From assembly GCA_013150955.1 (NCBI GenBank), contig JAADJD010000014.1, positions 1 to 35,046 on the forward strand: DNA of 35,046 bases, read 5' to 3'. Numbering within the stretch: the stretch's first letter is position 1; every line of letters starts with the position of its first letter. This DNA comes from Calditrichota bacterium. GTDB lineage: Bacteria > Calditrichota > Calditrichia > RBG-13-44-9 > J042. The translations under genes were made by a program, and so were the position numbers. Below, piece by piece: positions 1,173 to 27,523 of the stretch. The notes beneath the pieces were generated by a model. It saw only the letters and a list, made by a program, of their open reading frames with translations. It made no database searches and was not told where the DNA came from.

Positions 1173-2471
1173 TTAAAACAACCCATATTTTTCCACTAAT
1201 TCATTGGTCTTTGCCCCTCGGGCAATATCAATGAGAATTAGCTTTTCCGTTGTTAACCGTTTTAAAGCCTCGTTAATTATTTCATTTTCATATCGTTTTG
1301 GGATAACAACAATGCCATCTTTATCTCCAAATATTAAATCATCCTTGTGAATACTGATGCCGTCAATCACCACCGTTTTATTCTTGGAAGTTACAATCCC
1401 CCGTTTACGCGTATCTTTGCAATAATTACCTTTCGAGAACACAGGAAAACCCATATCCGTCGTTTCTTTAGTATCCCGCGTAACACCATCGATAATTGCC
1501 CCGACGGCACCAGAACGAATGGCCAGATTGGCATTTAATTCACCAAAAAAAGCGAAATCAGGGGCATGGTTGGCCACCACAATCACATCATTGGAAACCA
1601 CATGGTCATATAAGTGTAAACTATCATAAATTTTTTTGTAATCGTCATCATCCGGGCAGATATCTATCTGGAGGGTTTTAGCACGGCCTAAGATCTTTGC
1701 ATTAGGGATATTTAATTGAAATGAACTTGATAATACCCCATTGAGCCCCATATCATCCAAAATATCCGACAATAACGCACTCGTTAATAATAGTTTTAGG
1801 TTCTGGAAATGCCGTCTTTCCTGTTCGCGTAATCCAATAGCAATTAAATTTGCTAACTCAAAATCTTTTGGCCAATTCACATCAACTGCTTCAAGAGGGT
1901 CAATTTCTAATAAATAAGGACGCTCACCAATGCGACGCTTTAAGCGAAGTACCGCTTCCCGACGCATCACATATAAACCCATCGATTCAATAATCGTGTC
2001 CGGTAAGTCTACACTATTGGGAATTTTATTTATATCATAACATGGCTGACCGTCCTCCCATGTATATAATTTTTCTCTTCGAATGGCCACAACGGAATCA
2101 TACTCAGGATAAGTTTTAAGTGTGTTTATAGCTTTTTCAATTGTTTCCGGGCGAATAAAGGGACTGGTACCAAGTAATTGTACACAAATATCCGCATCGG
2201 TGTGTTTCACTTCATTTAAGAACAACTGATTCCCGTCGGTACTATTGGAAGCCAAAAGTGGATCCCTTTTTAAAATTTTACATTTAACCTCAGAAGCTAA
2301 CTCAATAATTTCGGGGGACTCCGTATCCAGATACACTTCATCAATACATGGAATACTGATGAGCTTCTTTAAATTTCTTAAAAACATCGGCTCGCCATCC
2401 AAAAGCATCGTATTCTTATTTGGAAGGCGCGCACTACTCCCTTTAGCAGGTAAGAAAGCAGCTACTTTCAT
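1173..2471 (-). CDS. CMP-sugar (acylneuraminate-type) cytidylyltransferase fused to RraA-like aldolase domain
   Basis: The protein has 432 residues. The start at 2471 is chosen because AAGGGAG lies 8 bases before this ATG and MKVAAFLPAKGSSARLPNKN is the usual first strand and nucleotide loop of NeuA/KdsB-type cytidylyltransferases; a start at 2498 would add nine residues with no such support. Residues 1-215 are the cytidylyltransferase: LPAKGSSARLPNKN (7-20) and LLGTSPFIRPETIE (99-112). Residues 222-432 match the RraA/4-hydroxy-4-methyl-2-oxoglutarate aldolase fold: TSALLSDILDDMG (230-242), FFGELNANLA (308-317), GAIIDGVTRD (324-333) and GDKDGIVVIP (382-391). Arg332-Asp333 correspond to the substrate- and metal-binding Arg-Asp pair of pyruvate aldolases in this family, so the domain looks catalytically able, unlike the RNase-E-inhibitor RraA. 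The first half should activate a ulosonic acid with CTP; the second may make or break a C-C bond to pyruvate. The pairing in one chain is unusual. The next gene downstream is a glycan transferase. Confidence 0.85.
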   Translation of the reverse strand: MKVAAFLPAKGSSARLPNKNTMLLDGEPMFLRNLKKLISIPCIDEVYLDTESPEIIELASEVKCKILKRDPLLASNSTDGNQLFLNEVKHTDADICVQLLGTSPFIRPETIEKAINTLKTYPEYDSVVAIRREKLYTWEDGQPCYDINKIPNSVDLPDTIIESMGLYVMRREAVLRLKRRIGERPYLLEIDPLEAVDVNWPKDFELANLIAIGLREQERRHFQNLKLLLTSALLSDILDDMGLNGVLSSSFQLNIPNAKILGRAKTLQIDICPDDDDYKKIYDSLHLYDHVVSNDVIVVANHAPDFAFFGELNANLAIRSGAVGAIIDGVTRDTKETTDMGFPVFSKGNYCKDTRKRGIVTSKNKTVVIDGISIHKDDLIFGDKDGIVVIPKRYENEIINEALKRLTTEKLILIDIARGAKTNELVEKYGLF

Positions 2472-2673
2472 AAGTATATCTCCCTTGCTCCTGAGCAACG
2501 TTTTCCAGAAACACTGAAATTAAAGCAATGCATCCAAGATCATTCATTTCACAGGAAAATGGCACAGATAAACTGGACAGGAATGCTGTAACGTTCGGTA
2601 GGCAAATCCGTTTTTTATTATCCCCATACATGACAGCATCCTTGCCGTTTTGGGTTAATGTTAGAGTTCCTCT
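2443..2673 (-). pseudogene. Probable C-terminal remnant of an upstream polysaccharide gene
   Basis: A minus-strand frame is open from just after a TAG at 2674-2676 to a stop at 2443. It reads LTLTQNGKDAVMYGDNKK, then RICLPNVTAFLSSLSVPF, then CEMNDLGCIALISVFLENV. This is protein-like in composition with alternating strand and helix, but it has no ribosome site and its first ATG (2631) is internal to the readable stretch. It overlaps the start of the fusion gene by 29 bases, as a C-terminus in a tight operon would. The upstream part is cut off near a short inverted repeat (TTAGAG/CTCTAA, 2661-2677). I read it as the tail of a truncated gene, but I do not recognise the family, and chance openness over about 75 codons is possible. 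Confidence 0.35.
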
Positions 2674-4250: not shown

Positions 4251-4460
4251 AACCCAAAATATGCATGACACCGCGAGTCCCGCGAATGAAATCAAAACAT
4301 ATCCCCAAAATCGCGAATAACCCCTGAAACACATTTTCATCCAGACACAATCCAATGTATTTTATTGGTTTTATTTGTGTTAATTCGTGTCATTCATAGG
4401 CTATTGCTTAATCTGGGATTAATTCGTGTCATTCGCGGTTCTAATGCATAATCTGGGATT
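4251..4460 (+). repeat. Dispersed palindromic intergenic repeat, copy B
   Basis: The left arm starts AACCCAAAATATGCATGACA. The core has CATCCAGACACAATCCAATG and TTATTTGTGTTAATTCGTG. The right arm is present twice: AATCTGGGATTAATTCGTG is followed by CGCGGTTCTAATGCATAATC and TGGGATT. The doubled arm suggests unequal exchange or slippage within the family. Orientation is forward. Confidence 0.8.
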
Positions 4461-5539: not shown

Positions 5540-5901
5540 GCGTTCTGCTTTCCCGTTATATGATGATTTTCTTCCCTGGACGGCTAATTCTTTTCAACCC
5601 AGATTGTGCAATCGCCTACGAATTACATGAATTAACCCAGATTATGCATTAGACCACGAATTACACGAATTAACACTAATAAAATTAATTACATTGATTA
5701 TATCTGGATGAAAATTCGTTTTGAGGTTCATTCGCGATTTTGTTTGTGTTTTCTGGTTTCAATCGTGTGATTCGCGGTTTAATGCATTACTTGGGTTCAA
5801 AAACCCACCGGAAAAATCGCTTAAATTCACTTTCGAAGGTGTATTCTGGCTTCAATTCCCGATTATCAGATTTAGATTCCTTTCCCCAGCGGCAACAACC
5901 A
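5540..5901. other. Intergenic gap filled mainly by a palindromic repeat
   Basis: About 200 of these 362 bases are copy C of the palindromic repeat. The rest (5798-5901) is AT-rich and directly follows the stop of the flavoprotein gene; no gene, terminator or promoter stands out. Confidence 0.5.
5596..5797 (-). repeat. Dispersed palindromic intergenic repeat, copy C (inverted)
   Basis: The left arm is doubled: AACCCAGATTGTGCAATCGC is followed by AACCCAGATTATGCATTAGA. The right arm ends GGTTTAATGCATTACTTGGG. The asymmetric core reads ACACTAATAAAATTAATTAC then TATCTGGATGAAAA, the reverse complement of the core in copies A, B, D and E, so this copy is inverted. Confidence 0.8.
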
Positions 5902-7486: not shown

Positions 7487-9154
7487 ATGCATGGGCATTA
7501 TTTTACATTAAAACGACAGGTCCAGGGTTTACAGTCCGATCTGGTGGGAAGCCGCATTCGCCAGAGCTTCACACAGATGAAAAATGAATGGATCCTGGAA
7601 ATCGAAACGACCACGGGAAATACCCACTTCCTGGAAATGAGTTGCGATCCGCAATATCCCTACCTGATCCTTACCGACACGGTACACCGGAGAGTAAATT
7701 CTACCGATGTGATGAAGGAGGTGCTGGGGCGAACGATCGCGCACATCGAGATGATTCCCCGAGAACGGGTCATCGTCGCAGACTTTGATGACGGTGCCAG
7801 CCGGTTGATTCTGCAATTTTTCACCCTGAACACGCATTTCTTTTTAATTAACAATGACAATCGTATTCTGAACAGCTTTAAAAAACAGAAAACCTTCATC
7901 GGACAGACCTTTACCCTGCCCTCTAACTCTCGAATGGATCCAACGGAAATGGACCCACAGGCCTTTCGCGATTATCTGTTGGAATTTAAAGACATGCCGC
8001 TGGGAAAAGGCCTAAAACAGAAATTTCTGTACCTCACCTCTCCGGTGGTCAATGAATTGCTATTTCGTTGTGGGCTGGACACTTCCGTGACTCCTGGAAA
8101 TCTAACTCCCGATGAGTTGGATACCCTTTACCACACCATCCAGGAGCTCCTTCAGCAATTTCAGCATGCTCCGCCTCATATTTATTATGAAGGGGACATT
8201 CCCATTCGATTTACGCTGGGGCCATTCCACAGTCTGGCAAAAAACCGCTCAGAAATCATCCCAGACCTGAACGCGGCCATTCGGCGATTCTGTTTTCAAA
8301 GCCTGCGCTTCCGCGACTTCATTCAGAAAAAACAACACTATCTCCAGCTACTGCAGAAGCGGAAGGAGCACCTTCAACAAACCATTCAAAAACTACAGCG
8401 ATCGGAAAATTCGTCCCGCAAAGAACATCTTCAGAAAATTGGGCAATTGCTTCTGTCCCAACCCCAGGCCTTTCAGCCGGGGTGTCAAACGGTCGAACTC
8501 ATCGATTATTTTGATCCCCAATTGCCCCGCATTACGGTCAAGGTGAAACCCGAGCTTTCCCTTCAGGAGAATGCCGAAAAACATTTCCAGAAGGCCAGGG
8601 AATGGGAACAGCGGCAGAAACAGCGACGCCAGCGATTGCAATCGCTTCAGGATCAGCTGAACCGCGTTGATCAATGGCTGGTGGAACTGGAGGGGATCAA
8701 TACGCATCGAAAATTACAGAAAATGCAGGAAAAAATGAAACAGGCCGGTCTGCTGCAACCCACGCAAGAAGAGGCACCGGCCTATCACCTACCATATAAA
8801 ACATTTCACTTCAAGAATTCTACCATCTGGGTGGGCAAAAGCGCCGCAGACAACGATGCGATGACGTTCCGCCATGCACATAAAGAAGACTGGTGGTTGC
8901 ATGTGCAGGGATATAGCGGATCTCACGTTATTCTGAAAAATCCAGAAAAGGCGGAGCATCCCCCACAGGATGCCCTGCATTACGCGGCGCGTCTGGCGGT
9001 AACGTTTAGCAAAGCCCGCCACGCCCGCTACGTACCGGTTCTTTTCACCAGGGTCAAATACGTACGCAAACCCCGAAAATCCCCACCGGGTACCGTCATC
9101 CCCACCCGCACCAAAACCTTATTTGTGGATCCCCTGCCAGAGGGTGAGGTGTGA
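7487..9154 (+). CDS. rqcH: RqcH/NFACT family ribosome quality control protein
   Basis: The protein has 555 residues, about the usual length. In bacteria RqcH binds stalled 50S subunits carrying peptidyl-tRNA and adds C-terminal alanine tails that mark the nascent chain for degradation. Residues 1-270 are NFACT-N, 280-430 a charged coiled coil (LQKRKEHLQQTIQKLQ and following), and the last 110 residues the NFACT-R domain: NDAMTFRHAHKEDWWLHVQG, GSHVILKN and KPRKSPPGTV. The ATG at 7487 begins MHGHYFTLKRQVQGL, a normal family start, although the ribosome site is weak. At the position of the Asp-Arg pair needed for tRNA contact in Bacillus RqcH I read Glu93-Arg94, a conservative change. It is the only clear plus-strand gene and converges with the receiver gene, with only 8 bases between stops. 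Confidence 0.92.
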   Translation: MHGHYFTLKRQVQGLQSDLVGSRIRQSFTQMKNEWILEIETTTGNTHFLEMSCDPQYPYLILTDTVHRRVNSTDVMKEVLGRTIAHIEMIPRERVIVADFDDGASRLILQFFTLNTHFFLINNDNRILNSFKKQKTFIGQTFTLPSNSRMDPTEMDPQAFRDYLLEFKDMPLGKGLKQKFLYLTSPVVNELLFRCGLDTSVTPGNLTPDELDTLYHTIQELLQQFQHAPPHIYYEGDIPIRFTLGPFHSLAKNRSEIIPDLNAAIRRFCFQSLRFRDFIQKKQHYLQLLQKRKEHLQQTIQKLQRSENSSRKEHLQKIGQLLLSQPQAFQPGCQTVELIDYFDPQLPRITVKVKPELSLQENAEKHFQKAREWEQRQKQRRQRLQSLQDQLNRVDQWLVELEGINTHRKLQKMQEKMKQAGLLQPTQEEAPAYHLPYKTFHFKNSTIWVGKSAADNDAMTFRHAHKEDWWLHVQGYSGSHVILKNPEKAEHPPQDALHYAARLAVTFSKARHARYVPVLFTRVKYVRKPRKSPPGTVIPTRTKTLFVDPLPEGEV

Positions 9155-9162
9155 ATGTTCAC

Positions 9163-9534
9163 TCAATCCGTTGCCTGCTGAATAAATATTTCCTCAATCA
9201 TGCGGCGAAATTCGGTGGGACGAATGGGTTTGGCCAGTATGTGTTGTACATTAAGCTCCCGTAATTCGGCAATCAACTCTTCATTTAATTGTCCGGAAAT
9301 GACCATGATCGGTATCGTCGGGTTTATGGCCCGGATTTTTTGAATCAATTCCACACCGTTCATGTTGGGCATCACGATATCGGTGATCAATAAATCATAT
9401 TTCTGGAATAACAACTTGTTGAGGGCCTCCTCACCATTGTACACCGCAATGACCTGAAATCCTTCCAGGGTGAGAAGAATATCGATGCTTCGACTCAAAT
9501 TCTTATCGTCTTCGGCTAACAGAATCTTTTTCAT
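9163..9534 (-). CDS. Stand-alone CheY-like response regulator receiver
   Basis: The protein has 123 residues and consists of one receiver domain with no output domain. The acidic pair is in AEDD (7-10), the phosphoacceptor is Asp52 in LLITDIVMP, and Lys102 in LAKPI completes the site. The MKKILLAEDD start (9534) is chosen over a longer frame beginning at 9642 because a consensus sigma-54 promoter ends at about 9570, so the upstream ATG would lie outside the transcript, and because GAGAATGAG sits before 9534. It may relay phosphate to another protein or act by protein contact; no direct partner is visible. It lies just downstream of the NtrC-type regulator gene (ends 9771), separated by 236 bases. 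Confidence 0.88.
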   Translation of the reverse strand: MKKILLAEDDKNLSRSIDILLTLEGFQVIAVYNGEEALNKLLFQKYDLLITDIVMPNMNGVELIQKIRAINPTIPIMVISGQLNEELIAELRELNVQHILAKPIRPTEFRRMIEEIFIQQATD

Positions 9535-9569
9535 GAATAACTCATTCTCATACATACAATCGTAAAAAT

Positions 9570-9585
9570 TGCAACATCCTTGCCA
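9570..9585 (-). promoter_or_regulatory. Sigma-54 promoter for the CheY-like gene
   Basis: The minus strand reads TGGCAAGGATGTTGCA: the GG of the -24 element and the GC of the -12 element are exactly 10 bases apart and both blocks match the TGGCAC/TTGCA consensus. Predicted transcription starts near 9559, leaving about 25 bases before the ATG at 9534, with a purine-rich ribosome site in between. Confidence 0.72.
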
Positions 9586-9686
9586 GCCAGGTTCTCCTCT
9601 GCACCTCCCTCCGATGCATAAAATGAATAAATTTACCGCCACCCCTCAGTCAACGTATTTTCAACAACTTACCTATCGCGATGGAT

Positions 9687-9697
9687 GGATCTGATCC
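9687..9697. promoter_or_regulatory. Possible activator site upstream of the sigma-54 promoter
   Basis: GGATCTGATCC is an inverted repeat (GGATC, one-base centre, GATCC) about 130 bases upstream of the predicted start site, a normal enhancer distance for an NtrC-family activator. The adjacent regulator gene at 9771-11135 makes it a candidate self-encoded target. Short palindromes occur by chance, so this is weak. Confidence 0.25.
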
Positions 9698-9770
9698 CAT
9701 CTATTCCTCCCTGCCACTTTTCATTCCATAAAACGGGATGGTTCCGGTCGTTTTTTGATGTGAAACTTTT

Positions 9771-11135
9771 TTACAATTCCACATCTTCAATCCCGTACTC
9801 TTCCAGCTTGTTGTAAAGGGAACGGCGGCTTATACCCAGGATTTTTGCTGCCTTTAGTTTGTTGCCCTTTACGGCTTTCAGGGTTTCCAGAATCATGGTT
9901 TTTTCCACTTCCGAAAGGGGGGTGCCCGGACGAAATGTAATCTGGGTGCGAGCAATGCCGGGTTTAACAATTTCCCTGGGTAGATGCTGAATCTTCAGTA
10001 CATCGCTGTCCCCCGCCGTCAAAACGGCGCGCAGCATGACGTTTCGAAATTCCCGAATGTTTCCCGGCCAGGGATAGCTCTGCAGGGCATCCAGAACCTC
10101 GGCAGCAATGTCCTGGATGTGCCGGCCCAGCTCCAGGTTAAACATTTCCCGGAAAAAATGGGCCAGATAGGGAATGTCCATTTCCCGCTCGCGCAATGGG
10201 GGCAATTCGATGGTGTACACGTTTAATCGATAGTACAAATCTTCCCGAAATTTGCTCTCTTCGATCAGACTCTGCAAATCCTCATTGGTTGCGGTAATGA
10301 TGCGCACATCAACGTGGATGGGGCGATTGCTGCCCACGCGTTCAATAATATGATTTTCCAGCACCCGCAACAGGCTGATCTGCACCGGCAAACTCATGGT
10401 GCTAATTTCATCCAGGAACAGGGTGCCTCCGTGGGCCTCCTCAAACTTTCCTTTCTTATCGGATATGGCCCCGGTAAAGGCACCTTTCAGGTGCCCAAAC
10501 AGCTCCGACGCGATGAGCTCCCTGGGGATGGCTCCGGTATTTACGGCCACAAATGGGCCATTTTTTCGTTTCGAATAATCGTGAATGGCACGGGCAACCA
10601 GCTCTTTGCCAGTACCGCTTTCACCGATGATCATGACCGATACATCCGTGGGGGCTACATCCCGTATTTTCCGATACACCTGCTGCATCTTCTTACACCG
10701 CCCCACTAATCGGTGAAAGTGAAAGTACTGGCTCAATCGTTGCAATTTTTCTTCTTCGGGAATTTCTTCTCCCGGCTCTTTTAATACCTGATCCACCACG
10801 GCCAGCAATTTCTGCGGCTTAACCGGTTTGGTGATGTAATTCATCGCACCGTGCTGCATGGCCTCCACGGCATGCTCAATGCTTCCGTATCCGGTCACCA
10901 TTATCACTTTCAAAGCCGGGAAATTTTCCTGCAAATGCTTCAAAAAGCGCATGCCATCCATTTCGTTCATGCGATAATCCGTAATCACCAGATCATACAC
11001 CCCCGAATCCAATCGCTCGATGCCCTCGCGGCCGTTTGCTGCACCATCGACTTCGTAGCCTTCTTCCTCCAGCAAGGTCATCATCCCAATGCGATGATTC
11101 TCATCATCATCCACCACCAGAATTCGGTAATTCAT
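9771..11135 (-). CDS. NtrC-family sigma-54-dependent response regulator
   Basis: The protein has 454 residues with the complete three-domain layout. The receiver (1-120) has Asp53 in LVITDYRM and Lys103 in ITKPV. The AAA+ domain (about 145-375) has Walker A GESGTGKE (171-178), the GAFTGA loop that touches sigma-54 (218-223) and Walker B GGTLFLDE (236-243). The C-terminal Fis-type helix-turn-helix is in NKLKAAKILGISRRSLYNKL. It should open sigma-54 promoters when phosphorylated by the kinase encoded 15 bases upstream. Nothing is missing in the catalytic motifs. The signal and full regulon are not visible; the sigma-54 promoter at 9570-9585 is a nearby candidate target. Confidence 0.95.
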   Translation of the reverse strand: MNYRILVVDDDENHRIGMMTLLEEEGYEVDGAANGREGIERLDSGVYDLVITDYRMNEMDGMRFLKHLQENFPALKVIMVTGYGSIEHAVEAMQHGAMNYITKPVKPQKLLAVVDQVLKEPGEEIPEEEKLQRLSQYFHFHRLVGRCKKMQQVYRKIRDVAPTDVSVMIIGESGTGKELVARAIHDYSKRKNGPFVAVNTGAIPRELIASELFGHLKGAFTGAISDKKGKFEEAHGGTLFLDEISTMSLPVQISLLRVLENHIIERVGSNRPIHVDVRIITATNEDLQSLIEESKFREDLYYRLNVYTIELPPLREREMDIPYLAHFFREMFNLELGRHIQDIAAEVLDALQSYPWPGNIREFRNVMLRAVLTAGDSDVLKIQHLPREIVKPGIARTQITFRPGTPLSEVEKTMILETLKAVKGNKLKAAKILGISRRSLYNKLEEYGIEDVEL

Positions 11136-14111: not shown

Positions 14112-14579
14112 GCGTTGCTTCCTTTTTTTAATGAACCAATATACAAACAGATTCGAAAACTCACCAAATAAAATTTAGCCTGGATTTTGCACTGGCCTAC
14201 GAATGACATGAATTAAACCCCAATAATACACCAACCCACGAATCACGCGAATGAGTTCGAAAAAAATCAAACAAAATAACGAATATATCCAGGAAAGTAT
14301 GGTCATCCACGCAGAATCGAGTGCATTTTATTATTTTTATTTGTGTTAATTTGTGTAATTCGTGGTTCTAATGCATAATCTGGGATGAATAATTAGAGTG
14401 AATTACGTCACCGGGATTGACCTGTCCACACGGGATTTGAAGGGAAGATCCGTAACCGGGATCTGGAGAGATCGGCTTGCGTCCTCAATCTTCTTGGGTA
14501 TCCAGAATGAATCGCTGATCTTTTCTACCCGGATCCTGTTGCACCTCTTTCTTTCGGGAGAATCCCCCTGCGCCTCGAC
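14112..14579. other. Intergenic gap with palindromic repeat D
   Basis: It holds the leader of the PorV-like gene (TATATT at 14122-14127 is a possible -10), copy D of the repeat (14177-14386), and about 190 bases downstream of the asparagine-synthase-like gene in which I see no gene, terminator or RNA. Confidence 0.5.
14177..14386 (+). repeat. Dispersed palindromic intergenic repeat, copy D
   Basis: The left arm is doubled and eroded (CCTGGATTTTGCACTGGCC, then CCCAATAATACACCAACC). The right arm is well kept: GTGTAATTCGTGGTTC and TAATGCATAATCTGGGAT. The core has TTATTTGTGTTAATTTGTG, so orientation is forward. Confidence 0.75.
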
Positions 14580-16367: not shown

Positions 16368-16719
16368 CCTTTATCCTCATTTTTACTTTAGCTCCAGGAA
16401 ACGAGTCCTCTAACCTATATTCTGAAATTTTACTAAAAAATTTACCTTTAAACCAAATTAATGCAATGAAACTCCAAAAATGCCTTTAACCGCGAATCAC
16501 ACGGATTAAACTAAAAAATATCAACAAAATCGCGAATAAACCCCGGAACAAATTTTCATTCAGATCTAATCCAATGTATCTGATTATTTTTATTTGTGTT
16601 AATTCGTGCAATTCGTGGTTTAATGCATAATCTGGGTTTATTGGTGTCAATTCGTGTAATTCGTAGGCTAATGCATTATTTGGGTTTAATGAAAAGTCCG
16701 GGTTAAAAAGAACGGTTTT
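16368..16719. other. Intergenic gap with palindromic repeat E
   Basis: Most of the gap is repeat copy E. The 5' leader of the asparagine-synthase-like gene contains TTGCAT, 16 bases, TAAATT on the minus strand (16439-16466), a weak promoter candidate whose -35 falls inside the repeat arm. Confidence 0.45.
16451..16687 (+). repeat. Dispersed palindromic intergenic repeat, copy E
   Basis: It opens AACCAAATTAATGCAATG. The core CATTCAGATCTAATCCAATG with TTATTTGTGTTAATTCGTG is close to copy B. The right arm is doubled: GGTTTAATGCATAATCTGGG and GGCTAATGCATTATTTGGG. Orientation is forward. It is the longest copy. Confidence 0.8.
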
Positions 16720-22869: not shown

Positions 22870-24279
22870 GAGAAAAAATGCGGCTGGATGCAGGCAACCC
22901 TCACGCCTGCGCGGGGCTATCATCTGTTTGCCCTTCAGGCAAACACGCCCCAACGGGGCTAAATAACAACACCCGGGGCAACACCCCGGGATTCAAGGAA
23001 AAACAGAAAAAACCGCCTGTTTCATCCCGCCCCAACGGGGCAAAATAGGATAGCCAGGGGCAACGCCCCTGGTAACGGGAACACCCCTAACCACACATCC
23101 CCCTCCGCCCTGAAAGGGCAAAATAACAATCGCCCGGTGATTTTGGAACCCCCCAACCAAACACCTTCCATCGCCCCCGTAAACGGGCCAATTCAATTCT
23201 ATTGCTGCCCTTCAGGCAGCAAATGAATTGAGAGGCCTCCCCTGCCCCCCCGCGCCCTGCACGGGGCTGTCATCTGTTTGCCCTTCAGGCAAACGCACCC
23301 CAACGGGGCAAAAATCGGGTAATCCGTGGAAACATCCATGATAATAGGGAGACCCTCCAGACCATAAATCCATCCCGCCCCGAAGGGGCAAAATAAGATA
23401 GCCAGGGGCAACGCCCCTGGTAACGGGAACGCCCCCAAACACAAATCCCCCTCCGCCCTGAAAGGGCAAAATAACAACACCCGGGGCAACACCCCGGATT
23501 TCAGGAAACCACACGATTCATCCATGAAAACAAAAAATCCATCCGTTTCCTCCCGCCCCGAAGGGGCAAAATAGGGTAGCCAGGGGCAACGCCCCTGGTA
23601 ACGGAAACGCCCCCAACCACAAATCCCCTCCGCCCTGAAAGGGCAAAATAACAACACCCGGGGCAACACTCTGGGATTCAGGAGAAAACAGAAAAAACCG
23701 CCCGTTTCCTCCCGCCCCAACGGGGCAAAATAGGATAGCCAGGGGCAACGCCCCTGGTAATGAAGACGCCCCCAACCACAAATCCCCTTCCGCCCTGAAA
23801 GGGCAAAATAACAATCGCCCGGTGATTTTGGAACCCCAAACCACAACGCCCACGCCCCGGAAACGGGCAAATTCTATTGCTGCCCTTCAGGCAGCAGATG
23901 AATTGAGAGGCCTCCCCTGCCCCCCGCGCCCTGCACGGGGCTATCGTCTATTTGCCCTTCAGGCAAACGCGCCCCGAATGGGCAAAATAACAACACCCGT
24001 GGCAACACCCCGGGATTCAGGAGAAAACAGAAAAAACCGTCTGTTTCATCCCGCCCCGAAGGGGCAAAATAGGATAGCCAGGGGCAACGCCCCTGGTAAT
24101 GAAGACGCCCCTAACCACAAATCCCCTTCCGCCCTGAAAGGGCAAAATAACAATCGCCCGGTGATTTTGGAACCCCCCAACCAAACACCTTCCATCGCCC
24201 CCGTAAACGGGCCAATTCGCCAATTCTATTGCTGCCCTTCAGGCAAACACGCCCTGAAGGGGCAACACCCCATTTCCCA
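22870..24279. repeat. Array of GC-rich small hairpin repeats
   Basis: About 1.4 kb of non-coding sequence is built from short inverted repeats. A unit of roughly 150 bp recurs five times, starting near 23026, 23374, 23552, 23710 and 24050. Each unit carries in order GCCCC-AAC-GGGGC (or GAA loop), CCAGGGG-CAACG-CCCCTGG, GCCCT-GAA-AGGGC, and in most CCCGGGG-CAACA-CCCCGGG, linked by AT-rich spacers such as AAAATAGGATAG. A second block (CTGTTTGCCCTTCAGGCAAA, then CTGCCCTTCAGGCAGC and GAGAGGCCTCCCCTGCCCCC) divides the array into three larger units at about 22908, 23251 and 23923, with one, three and one copies of the small unit. Similar GCCCT-GAA-AGGGC palindromes are scattered in Bacteroidota and related genomes, and some resemble REP elements. 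No transposase, cas gene or reading frame of its own is present. Confidence 0.9.
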
Positions 24280-27314: not shown

Positions 27315-27523
27315 ATCCCAGATTATGCATTAGAACCACGAATTACACGAATTGACACCAATAAAAATAATAAAATGCATTTGATTCTATCTGGATGAAA
27401 AAATTTTCCCAGATATGTTCGCTATATTGTTGATTTTTATTGAATTCATTCGCGGGATTCGTGGTTTAACGCATTATTTGGGTTAATTCGTGTAATTCGT
27501 AGGCGAATGAAAAGTTTGGGGTT
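27315..27523 (-). repeat. Dispersed palindromic intergenic repeat, copy F (inverted)
   Basis: The left arm is TCCCAGATTATGCATTAGAA then CCACGAATTACACGAATTG. The core has AATAAAATGCATTTGATTC and TATCTGGATGAAAA, in the same orientation as copy C and opposite to the others. The right arm is GGTTTAACGCATTATTTGGG, followed by a second, shorter arm ending TTTGGGGTT. Confidence 0.8.

Follow-up and report, generated by a model that had tools for sequence, protein, structure and literature searches.

To our knowledge, CMP-activated ulosonic acids are made by pathways whose first enzyme is a PEP-dependent synthase. In the flagellin glycosylation islands that use CMP-nonulosonic acids (Maf, FlmG), a CMP-sugar gene lies beside flagellin and glycosyltransferase genes. 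At the enzyme level, the residues that matter have been assigned in two comparable proteins: in NeuA, Gln104 and Asp209 form the metal/sugar site, Asp211 serves the second metal and Arg165 binds the sugar carboxylate (PMC2901514), while in HMG/CHA aldolase Arg123 stabilizes the enolate, Asp124 and Glu199 are the metal-binding acids and Thr145 positions the general-acid water (PMC5065237). Another RraA-family protein, FlDet, acts on a 2-keto-3-deoxy hexarate by dehydration/decarboxylation (PMC8563752). The RraA domain is also found as the C-terminal partner of sugar or keto-acid enzymes, namely, hexulose-6-phosphate synthase in PRK07028 and fumarylacetoacetate hydrolase in PRK12764; the protein analyzed here shares this arrangement, but its RraA domain is joined to a CMP-sugar synthetase.

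The gene lies near the left end of the window, by which we mean the whole stretch of 35,046 nucleotides analyzed. A sequence-only reading had proposed a fusion of a CMP-sugar synthetase with an RraA-type pyruvate aldolase domain at this position. The coordinates given for the gene are correct, both domains were recovered by Pfam, and the coding strand is the minus strand: the minus frame runs for 432 codons from an ATG at 2471 to a stop at 1173, and the plus frame is full of stops. Both matches lie far over the Pfam cutoffs (CTP_transf_3 at residues 4 to 125, E = 2.5e-18, 67 bits versus a cutoff of 22.6; RraA-like at residues 233 to 388, E = 8.2e-27). The motifs named for the second half, Arg332-Asp333, FGEL (309 to 312) and FGDKDG (381 to 386), are all present. 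A structure predicted from a 10-row alignment had a mean pLDDT of 44 and was too poor for use. Features of the locus are collected in Table 1.

Table 1. Coordinates of the fusion gene, its parts and neighboring features in the window
Feature	Position	Strand	Remarks
Fusion gene, CMP-sugar synthetase plus RraA-type domain	1173..2471	minus	432 aa
Shine-Dalgarno-like GGGAG	2479..2483	minus	Shortly before the fusion ATG
N-terminal cytidylyltransferase half	1857..2471	minus	Residues 1-205; KdsB/NeuA/PseF superfamily
Conserved linker (LANLIAIGLREQERR...)	1788..1856	minus	Residues 206-228; 70-91% identity in close relatives
C-terminal RraA/HMG-aldolase-type half	1176..1787	minus	Residues 229-432
Q98, D197, N199			Metal/sugar site of the synthetase half, by alignment to NeuA; roles per PMC2901514
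Glu311 of E-X20-R-D	1539..1541	minus	Aligns with HMG/CHA aldolase Asp102; Gly in L024
Arg332-Asp333	1473..1478	minus	By alignment, Arg123 (enolate stabilization) and Asp124 (metal) of HMG/CHA aldolase
Glu409	1245..1247	minus	By alignment, metal-binding Glu199 of HMG/CHA aldolase
Downstream codirectional gene, cut by contig end	3..1157	minus	15-bp gap after the fusion; GT-B domain, Capsule_synth (KpsC/KpsS) type
ATTCGTGTCATTCGTAGGCTA repeat sites	2931-2951, 4383-4403, 5612-5670, 14193-14213, 16650-16670, 27486-27506		

The fusion recurs well beyond this genome. Seven full-length homologs at 71 to 80% identity were found, together with one divided over two short contigs; the source MAGs of the close homologs are labeled Ignavibacterium, BRH_c32, Deltaproteobacteria, Holophagaceae and Verrucomicrobiales, and the full-length relatives at 71 to 80% come from independent assemblies in four other phyla, so that the fusion spans five phyla in all. 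Whole-genome searches added three close fusions, one contig-end fragment and two distant full-length fusions at 46 to 47% identity. Nonsynonymous divergence is alike in the CMP half, the linker and the RraA half (dN of about 0.13 to 0.27), whereas synonymous sites have reached saturation, a sign of strong purifying selection on both halves. A sequencing error or a chance join is ruled out by the full-length recurrence in independent assemblies, extending to the distant relatives, and by selection on both halves. Trees of the two halves agree at the supported groups (L023 with L024, and an Ignavibacteriota group).

Carriers are rare, at 1 of 40 genomes in the source phylum and 3/388, 1/347, 1/345 and 5/341 in the others (seeds included). 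This patchy presence, combined with the high identity across phyla, indicates horizontal transfer of the fusion between distant bacteria, as inferred from sequence comparison. No relative was found in the viral_contigs or phages collections, and a phage or viral origin was rejected. That the fusion is widespread and already assigned, which would have spoken against the earlier reading, was not borne out: the open literature searched, on the fusion itself and on RraA with CMP-sugar, Kdo or flagellin, held no account of the fusion, in agreement with the earlier statement that no characterized enzyme of this kind was known. Titles and abstracts on flagellin-Kdo glycosylation and on natural fusions of CMP-sialate synthetase with aldolase likewise held no account of it. 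We conclude that this is a rare but real bacterial fusion of two known enzyme families, in a combination previously undescribed in the open literature searched.

The neighborhood of the fusion points to sugar attachment: in most loci, a gene for a KpsC/GT99-like (β-Kdo-transferase-type) glycosyltransferase comes directly after it. In the window, the first domain of the gene directly downstream matches Capsule_synth (E = 7.8e-7), and a profile of seven such downstream domains gave a weak match to KpsC (6mgd, E = 0.0027). Homologous domains lie behind the fusion in L003, L007 and L028, and domains that align with it do so in L004, L005, L009, L026 and L029; in four loci (L003, L004, L006 and L026) the stop codon of the fusion overlaps the start codon of the next gene. 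The next protein in L006 combines a MAF/MptE-like stretch with a GT99 domain matching WbbB (5fa0, 1e-42), and WbbB is a retaining β-Kdo transferase (PMC9587256). No KpsC/GT99-like gene follows the fusion in L008, and the neighbors on the two sides of the L024 fusion are an ABC-2 permease and a Wzt-type ATPase.

A flagellin gene adjoins the fusion in L005, L009 and L026 and lies about 13 kb away in the genome of L028, and flagellin is encoded in 15 of the 16 carrier genomes. Within the Verrucomicrobiota, 5 of 6 carriers encode it, compared with 25 of the 240 genomes sampled; Fisher's test, which ignores relatedness, gives p = 1e-4. In the source genome the flagellins are on another contig (C12), and since the contig of the window stops before the fusion operon is complete, no linkage is visible there; the GT2-TPR protein beside these flagellins shares 36% identity with one in the L026 fusion island. 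The loci resemble the Maf and FlmG islands in placing a CMP-sugar gene beside flagellin and glycosyltransferases, in the MAF/MptE-like domains of L006 and L027 and in the TPR-GT2 protein beside the flagellin of the source genome. They differ from them in that no NeuB, PseI or LegI pathway genes were recognized beside the fusion and in that the transferase is of the KpsC/GT99 type. Because the fusion travels beside sugar-attaching enzymes, often with a flagellin gene, it may be a mobile, compact unit for making a surface sugar. Separately, in the source genome the flagellin cluster with the GT2-TPR protein has CRISPR-Cas-like genes, named by eye, in its vicinity (L046, 2608 to 9398 and 13829 to 17429).

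The second half matched 3k4i and the Pseudomonas putida HMG/CHA aldolase (3noj) in the PDB by sequence, and like both it keeps the enolate arginine, the metal aspartate and the metal glutamate. The earlier reading that aldolase active-site residues are retained is upheld by all nine aligned fusions, in which Arg332, Asp333 and Glu409 are invariant, the relatives at 46 to 47% identity included. Taken together with the linkage described above, these features are best explained, at a probability of about one half, by a bifunctional CMP-ulosonate synthetase in which the RraA half acts on the same 2-keto-3-deoxy acid and the product goes to a downstream flagellin or surface-glycan transferase. Substrate identity, catalysis by either half, the direction of the aldol reaction and any channeling are parts of this proposal that we infer. 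The N-terminal half would use CTP to attach CMP at the anomeric carbon of a 2-keto-3-deoxy (ulosonic) acid, and the RraA half would be a metal-dependent pyruvate-enolate enzyme, most likely an aldolase that either condenses pyruvate with an aldehyde to give the acid or controls the pool by cleavage. The reversible aldol reaction would be pulled forward by CTP activation, and the CMP-ulosonate would pass to the KpsC-like or GT99-like transferase encoded directly downstream and from there to flagellin or another surface glycan. A further-reaching version, which we offer tentatively and regard as somewhat improbable, is a natural one-chain route: an RraA-type class II aldolase would join pyruvate to an aldehyde, giving a new 2-keto-3-deoxy acid, and CTP activation would follow in the same protein. 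Such a chain would take the place of the PEP-dependent synthase of the NeuB/KdsA type in supplying CMP-ulosonic acids for flagellin or surface glycosylation.

Whether the RraA half makes the acid turns on where else the acid could come from. A true NeuB is absent from eight carrier genomes, among them the source genome, the only one of the eight with a stated completeness (99.7%); six other fusion carriers, and also the carrier of a split form described below, encode a true NeuB elsewhere in the genome. DAHPS/KdsA-type synthases occur in all carriers tested, and contig C64 of the source genome carries both KdsA and KdsB. With these two enzymes and no true NeuB, the source genome can make ordinary CMP-Kdo without the fusion and lacks a sialate-type synthase that could supply it. 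The possible makers of the acid there would be KdsA, a DAHP synthase and the RraA half itself, barring a route of another kind. A constant pairing of the fused form with Kdo8P or DAHP synthase was considered and rejected, as neither was seen near the fusion; no synthase or phosphatase gene of the PEP-dependent ulosonate pathway was recognized in the neighborhoods of the fused forms. The nearest stand-alone CMP-synthetases found, on Enterobacter and Escherichia coli plasmids, do have such genes beside them, one for a phosphatase and one for a NeuB-type synthase. That RraA is present in the fused form where these two genes flank the stand-alone form favors a synthetic role for RraA, without amounting to proof.

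A split form of the pair bears on the same question. In an acidobacterial genome, G480 (L025), the synthetase (9761 to 10495; 244 aa, 40% identity to the first half of the fusion) and RraA (10492 to 11115; 207 aa) are two genes overlapping by 4 bp, with a DAHP synthase just before them and a phosphohexomutase just after, in one apparent operon; the RraA-phosphohexomutase order is kept in G673 (L054), where the contig end falls inside RraA. This operon links the two activities even where the proteins are not joined. The split RraA keeps FGEL and TRD but scores nearly as high against 3k4i as it does with the fused domain, and it is mainly the place in the operon that marks it as an ortholog. The DAHP synthase is over one NCBIfam cutoff (TIGR01361), and as at least two stronger matches to the DAHP-synthase family exist elsewhere in the G480 genome, the copy in this operon may serve the CMP-sugar pathway specifically. 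As an observation in its own right, the set of DAHP synthase, CMP-sugar synthetase and RraA (8743 to 11115) suggests a CMP-activated heptulosonic or related acid.

Because the split operon has its own PEP-dependent synthase, the RraA half as maker of the keto acid is plausible but unproven. The earlier suggestion of a route to a CMP-ulosonic acid therefore stands in part: the KpsC/GT99-like neighbors and the absence of NeuB from several carriers support a role in such a route, in which the making or proofreading of the keto acid by RraA would be a further, conjectural step. A possible alternative, to which we give less than even odds, is that the RraA half edits or modifies, cleaving or decarboxylating noncognate or surplus keto acids or altering the ulosonate before CMP transfer, and that a PEP-dependent synthase (DAHP-, Kdo8P- or NeuB-type), nearby or elsewhere, makes the acid. 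The DAHP synthase of the split operon and the NeuB-type synthase and phosphatase beside the stand-alone synthetases allow for such a source, the DAHPS/KdsA-type synthases of the carriers could supply it at a distance, and FlDet is a known case of an RraA-family protein that dehydrates/decarboxylates a 2-keto-3-deoxy sugar acid (PMC8563752). Against it stand the bare surroundings of the fused forms, in which no such synthase or phosphatase was recognized, and the eight carriers that lack a true NeuB.

The family tests of the synthetase half address a second alternative, namely, that the fusion is an extra KdsB making CMP-Kdo for β-Kdo transferases, with the RraA half a minor Kdo aldolase. The closest solved relative of this half by PDB sequence match is PpNeuA (9t4z). 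As in NeuA, it has the CTP_transf_3 fold, and Gln98 and Asp197, invariant in the nine aligned fusions, correspond to Gln104 and Asp209; unlike in NeuA, Asn199 stands at the position of Asp211 and Ser153 at that of the carboxylate-binding Arg165 (alignment to 9t4z/1qwj and related proteins). Because of these two replacements, the half is, by residue tests, a predicted cytidylyltransferase other than NeuA. It also misses the NCBIfam equivalog models for PseF (51 bits versus a cutoff of 205.7) and for KdsB-type enzymes (about 46 bits or less versus cutoffs of 193 to 281) by a wide margin, and the attached RraA sets it further apart from NeuA, PseF and KdsB alike. GT99 (WbbB) and KpsC-like neighbors and the KdsA-type synthases in carriers would suit an extra KdsB, but the low scores against the KdsB models and the KdsB already present in the source genome make it unlikely.

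Returning to the RraA half, it differs from HMG/CHA aldolase in its attached nucleotidyltransferase, in the replacement of Asp102 by Glu and in scoring well under every such equivalog cutoff (78 versus 179 bits). In the window protein, Thr145 and Lys147 correspond to T354 and K356, for which relatives have V and R, M or S, respectively. This variation, the loss of Glu311 to Gly in L024 and the description of RraA proteins as oligomers with binding roles (PMC3814787, PMC5738090) would fit a noncatalytic half, an oligomerizing scaffold or allosteric keto-acid sensor comparable to the RNase E-inhibitor RraA proteins, but we consider this improbable, with Arg332, Asp333 and Glu409 invariant despite 46 to 47% identity, FGEL and TRD retained in the split RraA, and a score of 15 bits versus a cutoff of 241 for the enterobacterial RNase E-regulator model.

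If the RraA half is coupled to CMP activation in the bifunctional synthetase that we favor, the fusion would represent a shorter route and hint at a surface sugar not yet described, in several phyla with few cultured members; it would also be a ready-made biocatalyst whose logic is akin to that of chemoenzymatic cascades of aldolase and CMP-synthetase. Even if RraA only edits or modifies, the gene marks flagellin and surface glycosylation loci with KpsC/GT99-like transferases that were found nowhere described in the open literature searched.

Several minor observations were made along the way. In the plasmid capsule clusters (L048 and L049, both 7995 to 10905), the phosphatase beside the CMP-synthetase is of the inositol-monophosphatase type, and the NeuB-type synthase has 514 aa, of which the first ~237 residues are without a family match. 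In L026 (7884 to 9737) and L004 (50 to 1909), the fusion is immediately preceded by genes for proteins of 617 and 619 aa, respectively, with similar N termini; the former, which sits between fusion and flagellin, had no Pfam match, and its gene is unrelated to a 596-aa gene before the plasmid CMP-synthetase. In the window, the short repeat ATTCGTGTCATTCGTAGGCTA is dispersed in seven copies with at most three mismatches versus 0 expected, one of them upstream of the fusion gene. A GC-rich tandem array (22906 to 24218) with a period of about 339 bp and internal 159-bp copies lies between a DNA polymerase III alpha gene and chelatase-like genes (names by eye), and a transposase-like ORF, also identified by eye, occupies the right contig end (33307 to 35046).
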